The translations under genes and the position numbers were made by a program. DNA of 64,000 nucleotides from Barnesiella intestinihominis YIT 11860 (GTDB lineage: Bacteria; Bacteroidota; Bacteroidia; Bacteroidales; Barnesiellaceae): positions 1-64,000 of the forward strand of contig NZ_JH815204.1 in the NCBI RefSeq assembly GCF_000296465.1. The letters are read 5' to 3'. Below, in pieces: positions 2,586 to 39,845 of this stretch. The notes under the pieces were generated by a model. It did no database searches, was not told the DNA's origin, and worked only from the letters and a program-made list of their open reading frames with translations. How positions within the stretch are numbered: position 1 is the first letter of the stretch; every line of letters begins with the position of its first letter.

Positions 2586-2634
2586 TATTGTGATCCAGAG
2601 TTCTAAATAAATAGATAAGGACAAGCCGAAAACC

Positions 2635-2646
2635 TTATAGAGTAGG
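2635..2646 (+). repeat. 12-bp direct repeat upstream of cysteine-rich gene, copy 1
   Basis: TTATAGAGTAGG occurs here, 21 bases before the ATG at 2668, and again at 3157-3168 before the second cysteine-rich gene. It includes a purine run that could serve as a ribosome binding or regulatory site. Conservation ahead of two related genes suggests that the upstream sequence was duplicated with the gene. Confidence 0.5.
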
Positions 2647-2667
2647 CATTAATATAAATTATTTATT

Positions 2668-31130: not shown

Positions 31131-32177
31131 TTAGTTATTTTCGGGGCGTAATTTTCGAACGGTCACACCGGCTTGCCACATCTCGCTTTCTCGCAACTCT
31201 TTCAACTCTTTGTTCAATCCATCGCGATATCCTTCTTTACTGTTCGTGTCGATAGAACGTTGAGCTTCGTTCCCTTTGGCTACCTCTTCATACAGTTCTT
31301 CGAATACGGGTTTGGTAGCATCGCGAAACTTTTTCCACCAGTCGAGAGCTCCTCGCTGGGCTGTTGTCGAGCAGTTGGCATACATCCAGTCCATACCGTT
31401 TTCGGCGACAAGAGGCATCAGTGATTGGGTAAGTTCTTCGACCGTTTCGTTGAATGCTTCCGAAGGGCTGTGTCCGTGTGCGCGCAGTGTGTCGTATTGT
31501 GCGGCGAAAATGCCTTGAATGGCCCCCATGAGAGTTCCCCGTTCTCCGGTAAGGTCGGAATAAACCTCGCGTTTGAAAGTAGTTTCAAAAAGGTATCCCG
31601 AACCGACTCCGATACCGAGAGCTATAACTTTCTCTTTGGCGTGCCCGGTCGCATCTTGGAAAATAGCATAGCTCGAATTGAGTCCCCGACCTTGCAAGAA
31701 CATGCGCCGTAAACTGGTTCCCGAACCTTTGGGCGCAACCAGTACTACATCGACATCGGTAGGAGGAACGATACCCGTGCGCTCTTTGTAGGTGATGGCG
31801 AATCCATGAGAAAAATAGAGCGTTTTACCGGCGGTAAGATGTTTTTTCACTTTGGGCCATACCTCTATTTGAGCTGCATCGGAAAGAAGGTACTCGATAA
31901 TTGTTCCACGCTGGCAAGCCTCTTCGATTTCGAAAAGCGTTTCGCCGGGAACCCAGCCGTCGGCCACCGCTTTATCCCATGTCTTCGAGCCTTTTCTTTG
32001 TCCGACGATGACATTGAATCCGTTGTCCCGCAAGTTCATACTTTGTCCGGGGCCTTGCACGCCGTATCCGATAACGGCGATGGTTTCGTCTTTGAGGATT
32101 TCCCTTGCCTTTTCCAATGGAAATTCTTCCCGGGTGACTACATTTTCGTCAACACCGCCAAAATTCATGATTGCCAT
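31131..32177 (-). CDS. ilvC: Ketol-acid reductoisomerase
   Basis: A 348-residue enzyme. The N-terminal Rossmann domain has IAVIGYGVQGPGQSMNLRDNG (NADPH-binding glycine motif) and the RKGSKTW loop; the helical domain carries the metal-binding acidic residues (DLTGERGTLMGAIQG, ETVEEL). It converts acetolactate or acetohydroxybutyrate to the dihydroxy acids in valine and isoleucine synthesis. It is the last gene of the ilv operon, 34 bases after the thioesterase. Confidence 0.96.
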   Translation of the reverse strand: MAIMNFGGVDENVVTREEFPLEKAREILKDETIAVIGYGVQGPGQSMNLRDNGFNVIVGQRKGSKTWDKAVADGWVPGETLFEIEEACQRGTIIEYLLSDAAQIEVWPKVKKHLTAGKTLYFSHGFAITYKERTGIVPPTDVDVVLVAPKGSGTSLRRMFLQGRGLNSSYAIFQDATGHAKEKVIALGIGVGSGYLFETTFKREVYSDLTGERGTLMGAIQGIFAAQYDTLRAHGHSPSEAFNETVEELTQSLMPLVAENGMDWMYANCSTTAQRGALDWWKKFRDATKPVFEELYEEVAKGNEAQRSIDTNSKEGYRDGLNKELKELRESEMWQAGVTVRKLRPENN

Positions 32178-32211: not shown

Positions 32212-32976
32212 TTATCTGTTTTCAAATATGATTCTTCCTTTGCAGTACACGGTTTGGTCGTCCCGTATTTCTAAGGTAAAATGATCCGGTGCTTCTTCCT
32301 CTTTCAGCAGTTGCAGGGTAGAACCGTATCGAGCTTCGTTGGCATAGCTTATCTCGAATCGTCGGATACGTTGTTTGTCATACCGTTCGAAAGGGAAAAG
32401 GTCGAGTTCGTGCTCGATGTATTTCACACTGTTGACGTGTCGGTTCAAATCTATATCGTTATAAGTCACAGGATAGATTACTGCATTTTCGTCATGTACA
32501 TCGCGTACTCTCGATTGCTTTTCGATGGGACATGCTTTGTCCGATATGTTCTCGGCGATATATTCGAATTGACTTATATCTACCGATGTGCGACTATCCA
32601 AATCGATAACGACCCAAATCGTGCGGGCATATCCGCAGGGAGAGCCGTCCTCTCCCAGTATGGCGAAGTTTCTCGATGAAAAATGCTTGTTATACCCTTC
32701 GATCCATGTTTGTAAAGTATAATGCTCGTTGATGAGCGGATAACGGTACATTTCGACGGTGAGCCGGGAAAGTACCCATACTTGCCGGTTTTTGATGAGC
32801 GTACTATATCCCACGCCCCACGATTCGGCATGTAACGTAGCCACTTCGAGTATTCGTTTGGCGAGCAGGGTGAGCGGCAACTCCTGTTGACCGTTTCCTT
32901 CGGCCGGCTCTACGGTATAAGTTTTGGAGTAGACCGGTTCTGTTTGTCGTTTGGATTGTTCTTCTTTTTCTTTCAT
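32212..32976 (-). CDS. Acyl-ACP thioesterase
   Basis: A 254-residue double-hotdog thioesterase of the plant FatA/FatB-like family (PF01643). The first hotdog has VATLHAESWGVGYSTLIKNRQVWVLSRL, and the second contains NDIDLNRHVNSVKYIE with the Asn-His pair expected at the active site. It hydrolyses acyl-ACP to free fatty acid in the cytoplasm. Its place between ilvN and ilvC, overlapping ilvN by four bases, is odd for a lipid enzyme; branched acyl chains made from branched-chain amino acid precursors could be the link (inference). Confidence 0.88.
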   Translation of the reverse strand: MKEKEEQSKRQTEPVYSKTYTVEPAEGNGQQELPLTLLAKRILEVATLHAESWGVGYSTLIKNRQVWVLSRLTVEMYRYPLINEHYTLQTWIEGYNKHFSSRNFAILGEDGSPCGYARTIWVVIDLDSRTSVDISQFEYIAENISDKACPIEKQSRVRDVHDENAVIYPVTYNDIDLNRHVNSVKYIEHELDLFPFERYDKQRIRRFEISYANEARYGSTLQLLKEEEAPDHFTLEIRDDQTVYCKGRIIFENR

Positions 32977-33518
32977 AGTTGGTTTTGTCGGTATTGTTGT
33001 TCTTGTAGGAATATGCTTACGTGCTCGACGGTTGATTTGGTTATGGCGACACGTCCCGACCGGACGAATTGCATAACGTCGTATCGACTCAGTTCTTCGA
33101 ACAGAGATTGAGTTTCGTCGGGGTGGCCCGATTTCTCGATGACGGTATATGTGCGGTTTACTTCCAAAATGCGGGCATTGTGTTTGCGAATCAAATCTTC
33201 GATGCTCCTGTCGTCCAATAGTTTGTCGGTAGGAACCTTGTAAAGTGCGACCTCTTGAAAAATGATTTCGTCGTCGGTATAAAAGAAGGCGCGTAATACG
33301 TCTATTCGTTTTTCTATCTGCTTGACCAGTTTTTCCATCGTTTCGCGGTCGCTGTATGTCGTGATGGTAAATTTGTGTACACCTTCGATAGCTGATCCCG
33401 ATACCGACAGGCTTTCGATATTGAGCTGTCGGCGTGTAAAGATAATCGAAATCTGATTCAGCAATCCTACTTGGTTTTCAGAATAAACGGTTACGGTATA
33501 TAATGTCTGTTGAGTCAT
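32973..33518 (-). CDS. ilvN: Acetolactate synthase small subunit
   Basis: A 181-residue regulatory subunit. The N-terminal ACT domain (about 1-80) reads YTVTVYSENQVGLLNQISIIF followed by NIESLSVSGSAI; the C-terminal domain follows from about residue 85. It binds valine and sets feedback control and full activity of the IlvB catalytic subunit, whose gene ends 7 bases upstream. The length is that of the longer IlvH-type subunit. Confidence 0.95.
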   Translation of the reverse strand: MTQQTLYTVTVYSENQVGLLNQISIIFTRRQLNIESLSVSGSAIEGVHKFTITTYSDRETMEKLVKQIEKRIDVLRAFFYTDDEIIFQEVALYKVPTDKLLDDRSIEDLIRKHNARILEVNRTYTVIEKSGHPDETQSLFEELSRYDVMQFVRSGRVAITKSTVEHVSIFLQEQQYRQNQL

Positions 33519-33525
33519 ATCGGTC

Positions 33526-35235
33526 TTAATATTTTTCAGTGGCGTTGAGCATGATATGGGTTACACAGCTCCCGGCGGGAGTCATCGGGAATACCATGCA
33601 ATCCGGGTCTATTTGTACATCGAGCAGGTAAGCTCCGCGGTGGTCGAGCATACGTCGTATGGCAGAGTCGAGTTCTTCGCGGGTGGCGACCCTTTCGCCG
33701 GCTATGCCGTAAGCTGCCGCCACGCCCGTAAAATCGGGATTCAGCATTGGGGTTTCGGAGTAGCGATGGTCGAAGAACAGGTCTTGCCATTGTTTTACCA
33801 TACCCAAGAAATTATTATTGAGAATAATGATCTTCACATCGATACCATATTGCATGATTGTACCCAATTCTTCGATTGTCATTTGCAGTCCTCCGTCTCC
33901 GGTAAAAAAGCAGACCGTGCGGTCGGGATTGCCTATCTTGGCTCCGATAGCGGCGGGAAGGCCGAACCCCATAGTGCCCAATCCGCCGGAGGTAACGATA
34001 CTACGGGATCTTTTGAACCGGTAATATCGGGCCGATAGCATTTGGTTTTGTCCCACGTCGGTCACGAGAATACTGTCGTTGCCCGTGGCTTCGGATACCT
34101 TTCGGGCGACCTCTCCCATATTCATCAATGGTTTCCGGGGGTGTATCTCCGGTTCTATGACCTTTTCTTTTTCCACCTTTTCACACACCGAGAAAGATTC
34201 TATCCATTCGGAGTGTTCGGCGGGAGCGATTTTTTCATTCAGCTTTTGCAATACGGCACGGGCATCTCCCAGTACCGATACATCGCATTTCACGTTTTTG
34301 TTGAATTCCGACGGGTCGATGTCTATATGAATTACTTTGGCTTGTCGGGCATATTGTTTCAAGTCGCCCGTTACTCGGTCGTCGAACCGCATGCCGATGG
34401 CGATGAGCAGGTCGCATTCGTTGGTCTTGATGTTGGCGGCTATGCTGCCATGCATGCCTAACATGCCTTTGTATAGGGGGTGGTCGGTCGGTATTGCCGA
34501 TAATCCCAACAGAGTGCAACCTACCGGTATATCGGCTTTTTCGGCCAGTTCCGACAATTCCTTTTCAGCATGGGAGATAACTACCCCCTGACCGGCGAGT
34601 ATGAACGGCTTGCGAGACTGGTTGATAAGCCGGGCGGCTTCCTCTATTTCGACGGGTTGTATGTTGGGATAAGGGTTGTAGCTGCGAATGAATTGACAGG
34701 GGTTGTAGTCGAATTCGGTCATTCCCGCTTGGGCATCTTTGGCAATGTCGAGAACCACGGGACCCGGACGGCCGTTCCCGGCGATATAAAAAGCTCTTGC
34801 TACCGCCCAAGCTATTTCTTCGCTGTGACGTATCTGGTAACTCCATTTGGTCACCGGCTGGGTGATTCCTACGACATCGGTTTCCTGAAAAGCGTCCGAG
34901 CCCAATAGGGGAGAGGCGACCTGCCCGGTGATGACGATGAGCGGCGTGCTGTCCATCATGGCATCCGAGAGCCCCGTGATGATATTGGTGGCGGCGGGAC
35001 CCGAGGTGACCATGACGACTCCGGTCTTCCCCGATACTCGTGCGTACCCTTGTGCGGCATGTGTAGCTCCTTGTTCGTGTCTCACGAGGATATGTTTCAA
35101 TTTGTCTCGATAATCGTAGAGAACATCGAATACGGGCATGATGGCTCCTCCCGGATATCCGAATATATACTCTGTCTTTTCTGCGATGAGCGATTTGATG
35201 AGCGCTTCCGCTCCGCTTATTTTCTCTGTTGCCAT
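33526..35235 (-). CDS. ilvB: Acetolactate synthase large subunit
   Basis: A 569-residue thiamine-diphosphate enzyme. It starts ATEKISGAEALIKSLIAEK; the ThDP-activating glutamate is in VRHEQGATHAAQGYARV; the cofactor motif is GDGGLQMTIEELGTI through ILNN; the middle domain binds FAD. It condenses pyruvate with pyruvate or 2-ketobutyrate, the first common step of valine, leucine and isoleucine synthesis. The ATG at 35235 is preferred to the in-frame TTG at 35250. It lies 30 bases after ilvD. Confidence 0.96.
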   Translation of the reverse strand: MATEKISGAEALIKSLIAEKTEYIFGYPGGAIMPVFDVLYDYRDKLKHILVRHEQGATHAAQGYARVSGKTGVVMVTSGPAATNIITGLSDAMMDSTPLIVITGQVASPLLGSDAFQETDVVGITQPVTKWSYQIRHSEEIAWAVARAFYIAGNGRPGPVVLDIAKDAQAGMTEFDYNPCQFIRSYNPYPNIQPVEIEEAARLINQSRKPFILAGQGVVISHAEKELSELAEKADIPVGCTLLGLSAIPTDHPLYKGMLGMHGSIAANIKTNECDLLIAIGMRFDDRVTGDLKQYARQAKVIHIDIDPSEFNKNVKCDVSVLGDARAVLQKLNEKIAPAEHSEWIESFSVCEKVEKEKVIEPEIHPRKPLMNMGEVARKVSEATGNDSILVTDVGQNQMLSARYYRFKRSRSIVTSGGLGTMGFGLPAAIGAKIGNPDRTVCFFTGDGGLQMTIEELGTIMQYGIDVKIIILNNNFLGMVKQWQDLFFDHRYSETPMLNPDFTGVAAAYGIAGERVATREELDSAIRRMLDHRGAYLLDVQIDPDCMVFPMTPAGSCVTHIMLNATEKY

Positions 35236-35265
35236 AGTCGTTTTGTACAATTGGGACTCTGTTTC

Positions 35266-37092
35266 TTAGATAATTCGTACAGCACCTTTGTCGGCCGAGC
35301 TTACTAAGGCAGCATAGGCTTGCAAGGCTTTCGATATGTTTCGTGTTCTGTGTCGAGGGGTGAATGCCTCTTTTCCCCGGGTATTTTCTTCTGCTCTGCG
35401 ACGTTCCATTTCTGTTTCTTCGATAAGCAGGTTGATGCTGCGGTTGGGAATGTCTATTTCGATGAGGTCGCCGTTCCGCACTAATCCTATGTTTCCGCCG
35501 GCAGCTGCTTCGGGCGAGATATGTCCGATGGAAAGTCCCGATGTCCCTCCTGAGAAACGCCCGTCTGTAATGAGGGCACAGGCTTTGCCGAGGTGTTTCG
35601 ATTTGATATACGAGGTAGGGTAGAGCATCTCTTGCATGCCGGGGCCTCCTTTGGGTCCTTCGTAGATGATGACGACCACGTCTCCGCTCTTCACTTTCCC
35701 GCCGAGTATGCCTTCGCAAGCCTCTTCTTGCGATTCGAATACTTTGGCTCTTCCTTTGAAGCGGAAAATGTTTTCGTCCACTCCGGCTGTTTTAACGATA
35801 CAGCCGTCTTGGGCGATATTACCGAAAAGTACGGCCAGTCCACCGTCTTTGACATAAGCGTGTTCGAAATCGCGAATACACCCTTTCGAACGGTCGGTAT
35901 CGAGCTTGTCGTAATAGTTTTCCTGAGAGCCCATCACGAGGTTGAACCGGTTGCCCGGTGCGCTTTTCCAAAGCCTTTCCGCTTCGGGGGGACATGTTCC
36001 GTTTCGTATCGCATACAGTTCGATGGCTTCGGTTAAGGACAGTCGATCTACTCGACGGACAGATGTGTCTATCAGCCCCTCTTTTTCGAGTATGGCGAGA
36101 ATCGAGAGAATACCTCCCGCACGGTTCACGTCTTGTATGTGATAGTGCGAATTGGGTGCTACTTTACAAAGCACCGGCGACTTGCGGGACAGGGTGTCTA
36201 TGTCTTGTATCGTAAAGTCTACTCCGGCCTCTTGGGCTATGGCGAGCAGGTGCAATACCGTGTTGGTAGAGCCCCCCATGGCAATATCGAGAGTCATCGC
36301 ATTGAGGAATGCCGCGCGAGTAGCGATGTTACGGGGCAATACGCTTTCATCGCCGTCTTGGTAATAAGCCCGGCAGTTCTCCACGATTTGTCGGGCAGCT
36401 TGTATGAATAATTGTTCCCTGTTGCGGTGGGTCGCTACGACAGTACCGTTTCCGGGAAGAGCTAGACCGATGGCTTCGTTGAGGCAGTTCATGGAGTTGG
36501 CGGTAAACATGCCCGAGCAGGAACCGCAGGTAGGGCATGCGGCATGTTCTACTCGGCGTACTTGTTCGTCGCTTATGGTTTCGTCGGCCGATTCGACCAT
36601 GGCATCGATTAAATCGAGTCCTTTCCCATCGAGCTGCCCCGCTTCCATAGGACCTCCCGATACGAAGATGGTAGGAATGTTGAGCCGCATGGCCGCCATG
36701 AGCATGCCCGGTGTGATTTTATCGCAATTACTGATACAGATCATGGCATCGGCCTTGTGTGCATTGACCATATATTCGACGCTGTCGGCGATGAGGTCGC
36801 GGGAGGGAAGGGAATAAAGCATGCCGTCATGTCCCATAGCTATGCCGTCGTCGATAGCGATCGTGTTGAATTCGGCGGCAAAGCATCCTAATTTCTCGAT
36901 TTCTTTTTTTACCGTTTGCCCTATTTCATGCAGATGTACATGGCCGGGAACGAATTGGGTGAACGAATTGACGATTGCGATGATGGGGTTTCCCATCTCC
37001 GTTTCTTTCATGCCGTTGGCTCTCCATAGAGCTCTCGCTCCTGCCATTCTCCTTCCGCCAGTGCTCGTCGCACTCCGCAATTGATGTTTCAT
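35266..37092 (-). CDS. ilvD: Dihydroxy-acid dehydratase
   Basis: A 608-residue iron-sulfur enzyme. Cluster and substrate motifs are [20 protein letters not shown] and [19 protein letters not shown], and the C-terminus has [20 protein letters not shown]. It dehydrates the dihydroxy acids to the keto acids of valine and isoleucine. It is the first structural gene of the operon and directly follows the attenuator, so its expression should be the most strongly controlled. Confidence 0.96.
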
Positions 37093-37106: not shown

Positions 37107-37142
37107 AAAAGAAAAACCTTTCCGCAGTGTGGAAAGGTTTTT
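37107..37142 (-). terminator. Attenuator terminator of the ilv operon
   Basis: On the minus strand AAAAACCTTTCC (37142-37131) and GGAAAGGTTTTT (37123-37112) form a 12-base perfect hairpin followed by a pyrimidine run. It stands between the leader peptide and ilvD. The first arm can instead pair with GTGGAAAGG (plus 37187-37195), nine perfect pairs, which would prevent termination. Confidence 0.8.
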
Positions 37143-37196
37143 ACAATTACTCTAATTTAACATTCTATGAGAAGTAACTACATACGCCTTTCCACC

Positions 37197-37256
37197 TTAC
37201 CGACTCACGACAAGAAGCTCGCTAATGACCGATAGAGAAATGACGTGTAGTAACAT
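37197..37256 (-). CDS. ilv leader peptide
   Basis: A 19-residue open frame, MLLHVISLSVISELLVVSR, in the leader of the ilv operon. Eleven of the 19 residues are Leu (5), Val (4) or Ile (2), the three end products of the pathway. It starts about 25-30 bases after the predicted transcription start and is followed by mutually exclusive hairpins, as in classical ribosome-mediated attenuation. The start codon region (ACTACA, plus 37246-37251 reversed) can pair with the segment just after the stop (plus 37177-37182). There is no obvious Shine-Dalgarno site, as is usual in this phylum. It is too short for normal gene finding. Confidence 0.75.
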   Translation of the reverse strand: MLLHVISLSVISELLVVSR

Positions 37257-37287
37257 AATTATCACATAAATATTGTTTATGATGTTG

Positions 37288-37319
37288 CAAATGTATAACT
37301 ATTTTGTGATATAAACAAA
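37288..37319 (-). promoter_or_regulatory. Promoter of the ilv operon
   Basis: On the minus strand TTTG (37319-37316), 20 bases and TACATTTG (37295-37288) match the Bacteroidetes consensus. Transcription should begin near 37282, about 190 bases before ilvD, leaving room for the leader peptide and attenuator. Confidence 0.75.
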
Positions 37320-37497
37320 TAATTTGAAAGAAAATATGTACTTGCTATTTTAAATTGCTTGTATTCGCAGAGTTCATTGTAATAAATGAAAGTAAAAAAC
37401 ATCGTATAACTGTGTGATTGAAACCCGGTTAATTTTTGTCTTCTTGCTTCTGCCTAAGGAATGGCTGGAATTGAAAAAAATAAAGTGTATATTTGCA

Positions 37498-37505
37498 AGG
37501 TTTTA
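37498..37505 (+). promoter_or_regulatory. -7 element before tamL
   Basis: TATATTTG fits the -7 consensus and lies inside the 5' part of the open frame that starts at 37461. It predicts a transcript from about 37512 and so favours the TTG at 37539 as the real start codon. The -33 box is unclear. Confidence 0.45.
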
Positions 37506-37538
37506 TCCATCGAGAAAAATCAAGTTATCGGAGAAGCG

Positions 37539-39845
37539 TTGAAAATTCGTCGAGTTATAAAGGCAAGTTTAGGAGCGATCGTCGGTATTGTTCTGGTTGC
37601 GTGTAGTCCTACCCGCCATGTCCCGGACGGTAGCTATTTGCTCGACCATGTAAAGATAGAGACCGATGATAAGTCGGTGAAACCTTCCGATTTGAAATCC
37701 TATTTGCGTCAGGAGCCTAATCACCGTATGTTCGGGTTGTTCCGCTTTACGCTCGGGCTATATAATTTGTCGGGAAACGATTCGACCAAATGGTATAACC
37801 GTTGGGTAAGGAATGCCGGCACACCCCCGATAATTTACGACCCGGTTTTGATAGAAAATTCTCGTATGCAAATGGAGAAGGCCATGAATAATAAGGGGTA
37901 CATGGCTGCTCGGGTCGATGTCGATACGGTTTCGAAAGGTAAACGTATGGACGTGTTCTATCGAGTCTCGGCAAATACGCCGCATTACATAGACGATATA
38001 GACTATCGTATTTCAAACGATACGATTTCCCGGCTTGTCGAGCGGCAATATGCCTCTCATTCGCTTTTGAAGAAAGGATCGAATTTCGATAGAAATGTGT
38101 TGGACGAGGAAAGGCAACGTATTTCCGATATGTTGCGGCGCGATGGCTTTTATGCTTTTAATAAAGAACTGATTACCTATACGGCAGATACCGCCGACCG
38201 TTCGAAAGCAGTCGATCTCACTATGAATCTCGTTCCTGAGTCTGTTGCCAATGCTTCGGGGTATCGTCCGTACGAACGGTATTATATGAGGAAAATCTAT
38301 TTTGTGTTGTCTTATGACCCGACGGCGACCGACCAAATCGATGTTGCCAATGCCGGTACATATAAGAATTATTATTTCGTGGAAGGCGATCGCCCTTATA
38401 TTCGACGGGAAACATTGGTGGAGAATTGTTTCATTCGTCCGGGGTTGTTGTTCAGTAGTCGAGATGTGGACAATACCTATACGGCATTCGGGAGATTGCG
38501 TATTGTCAAATATGTCAATATTCGCTTCGAGCCGGCCGGTCGGAACGACGAAGGTGTAAATCAATTGGATTGTTATATCTTGCTCAGCAAGGATAAGCCG
38601 CAGTCTGTCTCGCTCGAATTGGAAGGTACTAATTCCGAGGGCGATTTAGGTTTTGCCGTGGGAGCTACTTATCAACATCGTAATATCTTCAAGGGTTCCG
38701 AAACTTTTTCGGCTAAGGTGCGCGGTGCTTATGAAAGTTTGTCGGGCGATTTGAGCGGACTCATCAATGACCGATATACCGAGTTGGGAGGGGAGATAGG
38801 AGTTACTTATCCCAAATTTCTTTTCCCGTTTTTGCGTACCGATTTTCGGCGGCGTATGAAGGCCAGCACCGAATATAGTATAAACCTTAATTTCCAGCAA
38901 CGTCCCGAGTATACGCGAGTCATTTGGGGAGCAGCTTGGAAATATAAGTGGACGACCAACCGGGGATTCTACCGTCACAACTACGACCTGTTGGATATAA
39001 ATTATGTCTATTTGCCCCGTAAGACCGACGGATTTCTCGAAAACATAGCCCCCGATAATCCGCTTTTACGATACAGTTACGAGGATCACTTCATCATGCG
39101 TATGGGATATACCTTTTATTGCTCCAATCTCAATCCCTCCAATCCGGTGCAGCGTCGCACCAATGTCTATACGTTGAGGGCTGCGGGAGAAATAGCGGGC
39201 AACGTGCTCAATGCCTTTTCCAAACTTACCTCGAAAGAGCCCGATGGGGGATACAAGATTTTTGGTATTCGATATTCCCAGTATGCTAAATTCGATTTCG
39301 ATTATAGTTTTACCCATTTAATTGACGAGCGAAACTCTATTGCTTTTCATGTAGGCGGAGGAATAGGCATACCCTATGGGAATTCCGATATTTTACCTTT
39401 TGAGAAACGCTACTATTCGGGTGGAGCCAACAGTGTGCGGGGGTGGTCGGTAAGAACGCTCGGTCCCGGTAGTTATAACGGCAATAATTCTGTATCCGAA
39501 TTTATCAATCAGTGTGGAGATATACGCCTCGATATAAATCTTGAATATCGTACCAAACTATTTTGGAAAGTAGAGTTGGGGGCTTTTATCGATGCCGGTA
39601 ATATTTGGACGATCCGTGATTACGAATCGCAGCCCGGCGGTCAGTTCCGACTGGATTCGTTTTATAAGGAAATCGCGTTGGCCTATGGATTGGGAATCCG
39701 TCTGGATTTCAGCTATTTCTTACTTCGCTTCGACATGGGAATGAAAGCCTATAATCCGGCGGCCGGACAAGACCATTGGGCAATCGCTTCGCAAAACTTC
39801 AAAAGAGATTCTGCGTTTCATTTCACGGTGGGGTATCCTTTCTGA
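37539..39845 (+). CDS. tamL: BamA/TamA family outer-membrane lipoprotein (TamL)
   Basis: A 768-residue protein if started at the TTG at 37539, which has GGAG upstream; an ATG at 37461 would add 26 residues. The signal peptide ends in the lipobox LVAC. POTRA-like repeats cover about 30-330 and a 16-strand Omp85 barrel the rest, with the loop-6 motif VRGW (GGANSVRGWSVRTLGPG) and last strand FHFTVGYPF. In Bacteroidetes such lipoproteins are called TamL and work with TamB in outer-membrane biogenesis; no tamB lies beside it here. Confidence 0.88.
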   Translation: MKIRRVIKASLGAIVGIVLVACSPTRHVPDGSYLLDHVKIETDDKSVKPSDLKSYLRQEPNHRMFGLFRFTLGLYNLSGNDSTKWYNRWVRNAGTPPIIYDPVLIENSRMQMEKAMNNKGYMAARVDVDTVSKGKRMDVFYRVSANTPHYIDDIDYRISNDTISRLVERQYASHSLLKKGSNFDRNVLDEERQRISDMLRRDGFYAFNKELITYTADTADRSKAVDLTMNLVPESVANASGYRPYERYYMRKIYFVLSYDPTATDQIDVANAGTYKNYYFVEGDRPYIRRETLVENCFIRPGLLFSSRDVDNTYTAFGRLRIVKYVNIRFEPAGRNDEGVNQLDCYILLSKDKPQSVSLELEGTNSEGDLGFAVGATYQHRNIFKGSETFSAKVRGAYESLSGDLSGLINDRYTELGGEIGVTYPKFLFPFLRTDFRRRMKASTEYSINLNFQQRPEYTRVIWGAAWKYKWTTNRGFYRHNYDLLDINYVYLPRKTDGFLENIAPDNPLLRYSYEDHFIMRMGYTFYCSNLNPSNPVQRRTNVYTLRAAGEIAGNVLNAFSKLTSKEPDGGYKIFGIRYSQYAKFDFDYSFTHLIDERNSIAFHVGGGIGIPYGNSDILPFEKRYYSGGANSVRGWSVRTLGPGSYNGNNSVSEFINQCGDIRLDINLEYRTKLFWKVELGAFIDAGNIWTIRDYESQPGGQFRLDSFYKEIALAYGLGIRLDFSYFLLRFDMGMKAYNPAAGQDHWAIASQNFKRDSAFHFTVGYPF

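Follow-up and report, generated by a model that had tools for sequence, protein, structure and literature searches.

A candidate ribosome-mediated transcription attenuator before the ilvD gene row of Barnesiella intestinihominis, with counterparts in other Bacteroidales

Results

The ilvD gene row and its leader

The window (the whole 64,000-nucleotide stretch of Barnesiella intestinihominis YIT 11860 DNA analysed here, contig NZ_JH815204.1) carries on its minus strand a row of genes that Pfam domains identify as ilvD-ilvB-ilvN-thioesterase-ilvC, and the candidate attenuator lies ahead of this row. The acyl-ACP thioesterase-like gene sits within the branched-chain row, between ilvN and ilvC, and overlaps ilvN by four bases. 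The genes are as follows.

37461-39845, plus strand: Omp85 family gene, the nearest upstream gene, divergent from ilvD
35266-37092, minus strand: ilvD, dihydroxy-acid dehydratase (PF00920, PF24877)
33526-35250, minus strand: ilvB, acetolactate synthase large subunit (Pfam TPP enzyme domains; name inferred from the domains and the neighbours)
32973-33518, minus strand: ilvN, acetolactate synthase small subunit (PF10369)
32212-32976, minus strand: acyl-ACP thioesterase-like gene (PF01643, PF20791)
31131-32177, minus strand: ilvC, ketol-acid reductoisomerase (PF07991, PF01450)

Read toward ilvD, the minus strand presents in order a promoter of Bacteroides type (37319-37288), a leader ORF, a segment around its stop codon, a terminator and the ilvD start at 37092.

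37316-37319, minus strand: -33 element TTTG, by the consensus in PMC7366714
37288-37295, minus strand: -7 element TACATTTG (TAnnTTTG), 20 nt past the -33 element, by the same consensus
37263-37265, minus strand: alternative in-frame GTG start
37197-37256, minus strand: leader ORF MLLHVISLSVISELLVVSR, from ATG at 37256 to TAA at 37199-37197
37228-37255, minus strand: segment 1, at the start of the leader ORF, partner of segment 2 (duplex prediction, swap test)
37173-37204, minus strand: segment 2, over and past the leader stop codon (duplex prediction, swap test)
37187-37195, minus strand: antiterminator 5' arm GTGGAAAGG, the core of segment 2 (fold, 2:3 swap test)
37129-37137, minus strand: antiterminator 3' arm CCTTTCCAC, in segment 3, overlapping the terminator 5' arm (fold)
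37112-37142, minus strand: intrinsic terminator hairpin, segments 3 and 4

The main parts of this layout had been described in an initial annotation of the locus, and they stand. The promoter, said there to have a good consensus, fits the sigma-ABfr consensus TTTG / TAnnTTTG described in PMC7366714 rather than sigma-70. The 19-codon peptide does have 11 branched-chain codons (Leu, Val or Ile), and the Leu codon CTA, used twice in it, accounts for 3% of Leu codons over ten genes of the window (n = 396). The terminator has its 12 perfect pairs, closing a 7-nt loop and followed by CTTTT, and lies with this U-rich tail 19 nt upstream of ilvD. The alternative pairing of GTGGAAAGG with CCTTTCCAC comprises the nine pairs claimed, to which the predicted fold adds an inner stem, and the proposed pairing of the start of the peptide with the segment after its stop codon corresponds to a 1:2 duplex predicted at -19.5 kcal/mol. 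Translation of the leader had been expected to begin without a Shine-Dalgarno site; none is seen at the ORF, which is the normal situation in this phylum according to the relevant parts of PMC6847099 and PMC9976891.

A hairpin in this position might be a plain terminator, or might dampen transcription to a fixed degree, with the small ORF incidental or a small-protein gene. We regard this as quite improbable. Runs of A and T flank the hairpin, and it might act in either direction, but it stands between the promoter and the ilvD start. Since the nearest upstream gene is divergent, there is no neighbouring minus-strand gene upstream that the hairpin could terminate, and no plausible plus-strand gene ends at it, the plus-strand ORF at 36821-37084 being antisense to ilvD. 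The folding z-score of the single leader sequence is only -1.33, so the case for an attenuator rests on comparison and not on folding energy.

Rfam searches at gathering and at loose E-values returned no usable match at the leaders. At the ilvD leader no T-box or other Rfam riboswitch reached its gathering score, and the best sub-threshold matches (PyrR, rnk_leader and Phe_leader) scored 18.5-20.7 bits against 50-55. Elsewhere in the window, positions 2616-2648 (plus strand) match the DUF805b RNA (RF02914, 39 bits). A riboswitch or a protein-bound leader that senses the amino acid directly, with the peptide only tuning the response, might account for a stretch resembling G-Y-R-U-G-U-A that recurs, by eye, in segment 2 of many families. 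That stretch pairs with segment 1, however, no Rfam family fits the leader at gathering score, and the spacer outside the ORF and the pairing segments is variable even within the genus; direct sensing is accordingly, in our estimation, very improbable.

The distance between leader and gene bears on a further alternative, in which the leader would couple to or reinitiate ilvD translation. It has been proposed that nearby leader genes help reinitiation, the distances in Bacteroidetes peaking at 11-14 bp, whereas attenuation is said to require 40 bp or more (both from the relevant passages of PMC4833913). Here the leader stop codon is 104 nt from ilvD and a full terminator lies in between, and translational control is in our view the least probable of the three alternatives.

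The leader is conserved within the genus

All nine same-genus genomes keep the ilvD leader ORF with a nearly constant peptide. Every one has the ATG at 37256, the sole start common to all; an in-frame start nine bases further upstream occurs in eight of the nine (ATG in seven, GTG in the window), the aligned codon in the remaining genome being CTT. Three of the nine genomes carry a whole in-frame Ile codon (3 nt) inserted in the ORF, which is evidence that it is coding, whereas the spacer between leader stop and terminator varies by indels, some of which are not multiples of three. Conservation of the peptide and the stems in close relatives was a point on which the initial annotation had made its reading depend, and both are conserved across these nine genomes.

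Similar leaders precede ilvD in many Bacteroidota

We surveyed ilvD upstream regions with a detector that calls a small ORF having at least 7 Leu/Val/Ile per 12-codon window and a terminator at most 110 nt downstream. It called 69 of 108 upstream regions, compared with 6 of 318 dinucleotide shuffles (a background that omits two loci containing N) and 7 of 108 reverse strands. The calls divide into 25 of 28 from the window's own genome and the genomes of relatives, and 44 of 80 from contigs with organism titles. The 18 loci with non-Bacteroidota titles gave no call; upstream DNA is shorter than 180 nt in three of them, and some of the titles may be wrong. Loci titled Prevotella or Prevotellaceae gave 4 calls out of 10, two of these being judged spurious. 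Among more distant ilvD loci the detector made 10 calls out of 40, and by eye nine of them look genuine.

Four of the 69 calls (L026, L070, L078 and L100) were dropped as spurious by eye, as were second calls in L014, L033 and L055, leaving 68 elements in 65 loci. For the pairing comparisons we left out L020, where the detector had taken the antiterminator for the terminator, together with redundant elements: seven same-genus loci, L033 (close to L014) and both elements of L102 (close to L104). This gave 57 elements. The pair L014 and L033, a same-order relative and Heminiphilus faecis respectively, agree in leader and terminator.

Tandem ilv attenuators, in which each of two leader ORFs has a terminator of its own, precede ilvD in L028, L102 and L104 and, by eye, in L094, representing three Marinifilaceae-type genomes and G030. 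In L028 they occupy positions 36-162 and 184-332 of a 354-nt upstream region. The B. intestinihominis window has one ilv attenuator only.

In a set from another class of the phylum with ~53% IlvD identity (L147-L175) the detector called 10 of 29 loci. A looser test, which asked only for 7 or more Leu/Val/Ile within 12 codons of an upstream ORF and had no shuffle background, found such an ORF in 22 of the 29, with several peptides recurring. The distance from ORF to ilvD match is about 110-160 nt (246 in one case), and in most of them the layout downstream is different; 13 of the 29 loci have a conserved CCCAAGTCC able to pair with a downstream GGCTTCGGG. From their sequences, these may be genuine leaders of another or a degenerate layout, possibly further attenuator classes. 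Five loci of this set (L149, L159, L164, L173 and L174) share a GGGATT-type element that is repeated within and after the ORF.

Pairing between leader segments is species-specific

We compared the duplex energy of each segment with its own partner to that obtained when partners were exchanged between species (5000 permutations, n = 57). For 3:4 the means were -18.4 (own) and -12.0 kcal/mol (swapped), giving z = -19.6 with 0/5000 permutations as extreme, although this hairpin was itself a selection criterion. The pairings that played no part in selection behaved likewise: 2:3 gave -13.5 against -10.5 kcal/mol (z = -9.3, 0/5000) and 1:2 gave -13.1 against -10.4 kcal/mol (z = -7.3, 0/5000). Combinations outside the classical attenuation scheme showed no such effect over the same 57 elements (1:3, z = 0.9; 1:4, z = -0.2; 2:4, z = 0.0), which argues against an effect of composition. 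In 41 more diverse representatives, selected by a gap-penalised identity score with the cut-off at 60%, z was -17.5 for 3:4, -8.9 for 2:3 and -6.2 for 1:2, and the controls were again null. The permutations ignore phylogeny and the segment windows were set after inspection of the sequences, and the z-scores should be read with this in mind.

A narrower cut of segment 2 at the stop codon (S2a) gave z = -4.7 with segment 1, consistent with segment 1 pairing extending into the antiterminator arm. The inner antiterminator stem (2b:3b) showed no significant covariation (z = -1.4, n = 46).

Covariation of the stems across ilvD leaders had been suggested as a check on the initial annotation, and the 1:2 and 2:3 pairings prove to be species-specific in both samples, 3:4 being the strongest but selected for. 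Together with the conservation within the genus, these comparisons support the classical 1:2, 2:3, 3:4 arrangement that had been read from the window. They are also difficult to reconcile with a plain terminator, which has no need of species-specific complementarity of 2:3 and 1:2 over 57 elements.

Ribosome position switches the predicted fold

To model the ribosome, we masked the RNA up to 13 nt beyond the start of the A-site codon and folded the transcript as far as the terminator's end. In the window, the terminator has a probability of 0.999 with no ribosome, and of 0.51, 0.39 and 0.14 with the A-site on codons 1, 2 and 3. With the ribosome on codons 4-17 the antiterminator takes over (0.88-1.00), and on codons 18-20 (AGT, CGG, TAA) the terminator returns at 1.00. 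The predicted fold thus changes over as the ribosome passes from the last Val codon to the Ser-Arg-stop tail. When the mask was varied from +9 to +16 nt, the changeover fell between codons 16/17 and 18/19, and from +14 upward the last Val codon would lie on the terminating side.

Across the 57 elements the equilibrium model reproduces all three states in only 13, compared with 1 of 57 when the spacer is shuffled. In most elements the finished terminator outcompetes 2:3, and kinetics must therefore matter. Before segment 4 has been made, the stalled state exceeds the state at the stop codon by more than 0.3 in 54 of 57 elements, against 23 of 57 shuffled controls. At the same stage the no-ribosome and stalled states do not differ beyond the control (mean 0.14 against 0.12; more than 0.3 in 11 of 57 against 13 of 57), the window giving 0.73 in both. 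Simple equilibrium models were consequently set aside as proof of the no-ribosome state, for which they are not supportive beyond the window. Because the calculation before segment 4 does not separate this state from the stall, the role of 1:2 rests on covariation. On that evidence the 1:2 pairing is real, and its effect would be to favour termination when no ribosome is present.

Leaders of other amino acid genes in the genus

Comparable leaders precede other biosynthetic genes of the genus. A leuA leader such as MIIELLNSLIIDLLSNVTE, with a terminator, occurs in all eight genomes that have a leuA hit (one of the nine lacks leuA). A hisG leader such as MMVLFLHHSHVHCPFGG with its terminator is found in 9/9 genomes, the peptides (L120-L128) being His-rich, with HHSHVH, HHHHLH and similar runs. 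The nine genomes likewise all have a pheA leader such as MKNFDFAYYFYFYFYFGEK and a terminator (L178 by eye); these peptides (L176-L184) are Phe/Tyr-rich, of the form M[KR]NF[DN]FAYYF..., and the terminator arm matches a segment near the stop codon. The 1:2 and 2:3 duplexes of 25 of the 26 leuA, hisG and pheA leaders were calculated by prediction, with own partners only. The 2:3 duplex is weak in two pheA leaders, L176 and L181, as the ORF there runs past the segment, which a cut made relative to the stop codon then misses. That the leu, his and phe leaders are each rich in the residues of their own pathway speaks against the ilvD leader ORF being incidental.

The leader of the presumed thrA, a long ORF that encodes a homoserine dehydrogenase domain, is, judged from its sequence, of a different layout and not three-segment. 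Its ORF (L138-L146), present in 9/9 genomes, contains Thr and ends in [TI]-T-P; a CCCC-TTA-GGGG hairpin holds the TAG stop in its loop and is followed by a GGAGG-like sequence, and no U tract adjoins this hairpin in the window's genome. A pattern search for the motif in 60 genomes, a sample holding no other members of the genus, matched the window's own genome only. The anthranilate synthase N-terminal domain PF04715 was not found in any of the nine same-genus genomes, which suggests tryptophan auxotrophy in the genus.

Discussion

A model for control of the ilv row

The ilvD leader combines a pathway-rich ORF, an intrinsic terminator, exclusive 2:3 and 1:2 pairings and, in the window, a switch under ribosome masking, which are the features by which an attenuator is recognised. 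The parts, their conservation and their species-specific pairing are established. Taken together with the folding models they make it very probable that ilvDBN(-thioesterase-)C is governed by ribosome-mediated transcription attenuation, in which the row would be transcribed as an operon and respond to starvation. RNA polymerase would start just after 37288, and a ribosome would begin the leader without a Shine-Dalgarno site. A shortage of charged Leu-, Val- or Ile-tRNA would stall the ribosome at the branched-chain codons, where it would cover segment 1 and leave segment 2 free to pair with segment 3; no terminator would then form and the operon would be transcribed. When the amino acids are plentiful, a translating ribosome would reach Ser-Arg-stop and cover segment 2, 3:4 would form, and transcription would end at about 37110. 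With no ribosome on the leader, 1:2 would pair and the terminator would again be favoured.

The matching ilv, leu, his and phe leaders in one genus without Shine-Dalgarno starts, and the stacked ilv attenuators, incline us to the broader view that ribosome-mediated attenuation is a general amino acid control of Bacteroidales that extends to other classes of the phylum, though we hold this with clearly less assurance than the model for ilvD.

If the ilvD model is correct, a translation-based sensor would govern branched-chain synthesis in many Bacteroidales, many of them titled as gut samples, and these short leaders would directly report how transcription and translation are coupled in a phylum that does without Shine-Dalgarno pairing. 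Were the broader view also to hold, ribosomes that start independently of such sites would have to trail RNA polymerase closely enough to decide termination within ~170 nt of the start. The combination of a pathway-rich small ORF, a stop-codon segment and a terminator provides an annotation recipe where, as at the ilvD leader, Rfam finds nothing.

Comparison with known systems

Ribosome-mediated attenuation is a textbook mechanism, and E. coli ilvL / ilvGMEDA, with its terminator and alternative hairpins, is among its examples. As here, a leader peptide rich in Leu, Val and Ile precedes the ilv genes; unlike E. coli, the present leader has no Shine-Dalgarno site, a promoter of sigma-ABfr type and a row that begins with ilvD. 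The E. coli IlvL stretch LLRVISLVVIS (NC_000913.3) resembles LLHVISLSVIS here, with 0/500 residue shuffles scoring as high. Other Bacteroidales leaders also score high against IlvL (L060, 0/500; L014 and L017, 1/500), which makes convergence on a composition rich in branched-chain residues likely; the resemblance is thus probably convergent and we do not claim common descent.

Within the phylum, the Bacteroid-trp RNA is a trp attenuator. It was listed as a likely cis-regulatory RNA of Bacteroidetes (RF01692; PMC2864571, Table 1) and differs from the ilvD leader in amino acid and in sequence family. It matched 2 of 21 genomes searched, once above the cut-off; the window had no match at gathering, and none of the nine genus genomes had one at E 0.001. 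Vitreschak et al. (2004; FEMS Microbiol Lett 234:357) reportedly predicted attenuators by comparative genomics with Bacteroidetes/Chlorobi included, in a paper whose title names proteobacteria. In B. thetaiotaomicron, small ORFs in long 5' UTRs, for example at BT_4401, have been called "reminiscent of leader peptides" (PMC7366714), in a main text where the string ilv is absent. The initial annotation knew of no proven case in the phylum; in agreement with this, no experimental case was found among the titles and abstract openings of the open-licence papers that our searches listed.

In Corynebacterium, ilvBNC resembles the present locus in that an ORF lies ahead of the ilv genes and an attenuator with three hairpins has been modelled there; it differs in phylum and in an operon that begins with ilvB (relevant parts of PMC10272879 and PMC11857589). 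The tandem attenuators of Salmonella mgtCBR, with two leader ORFs in one leader, are comparable with those of L028, L094, L102 and L104 (relevant parts of PMC3641672), although signal and genes differ from the ilv attenuators and the window has a single one. Set beside these systems, the ilvD attenuator adds a well-supported case to a known mechanism, whose interest lies in its wide use in the phylum and its start independent of a Shine-Dalgarno site.
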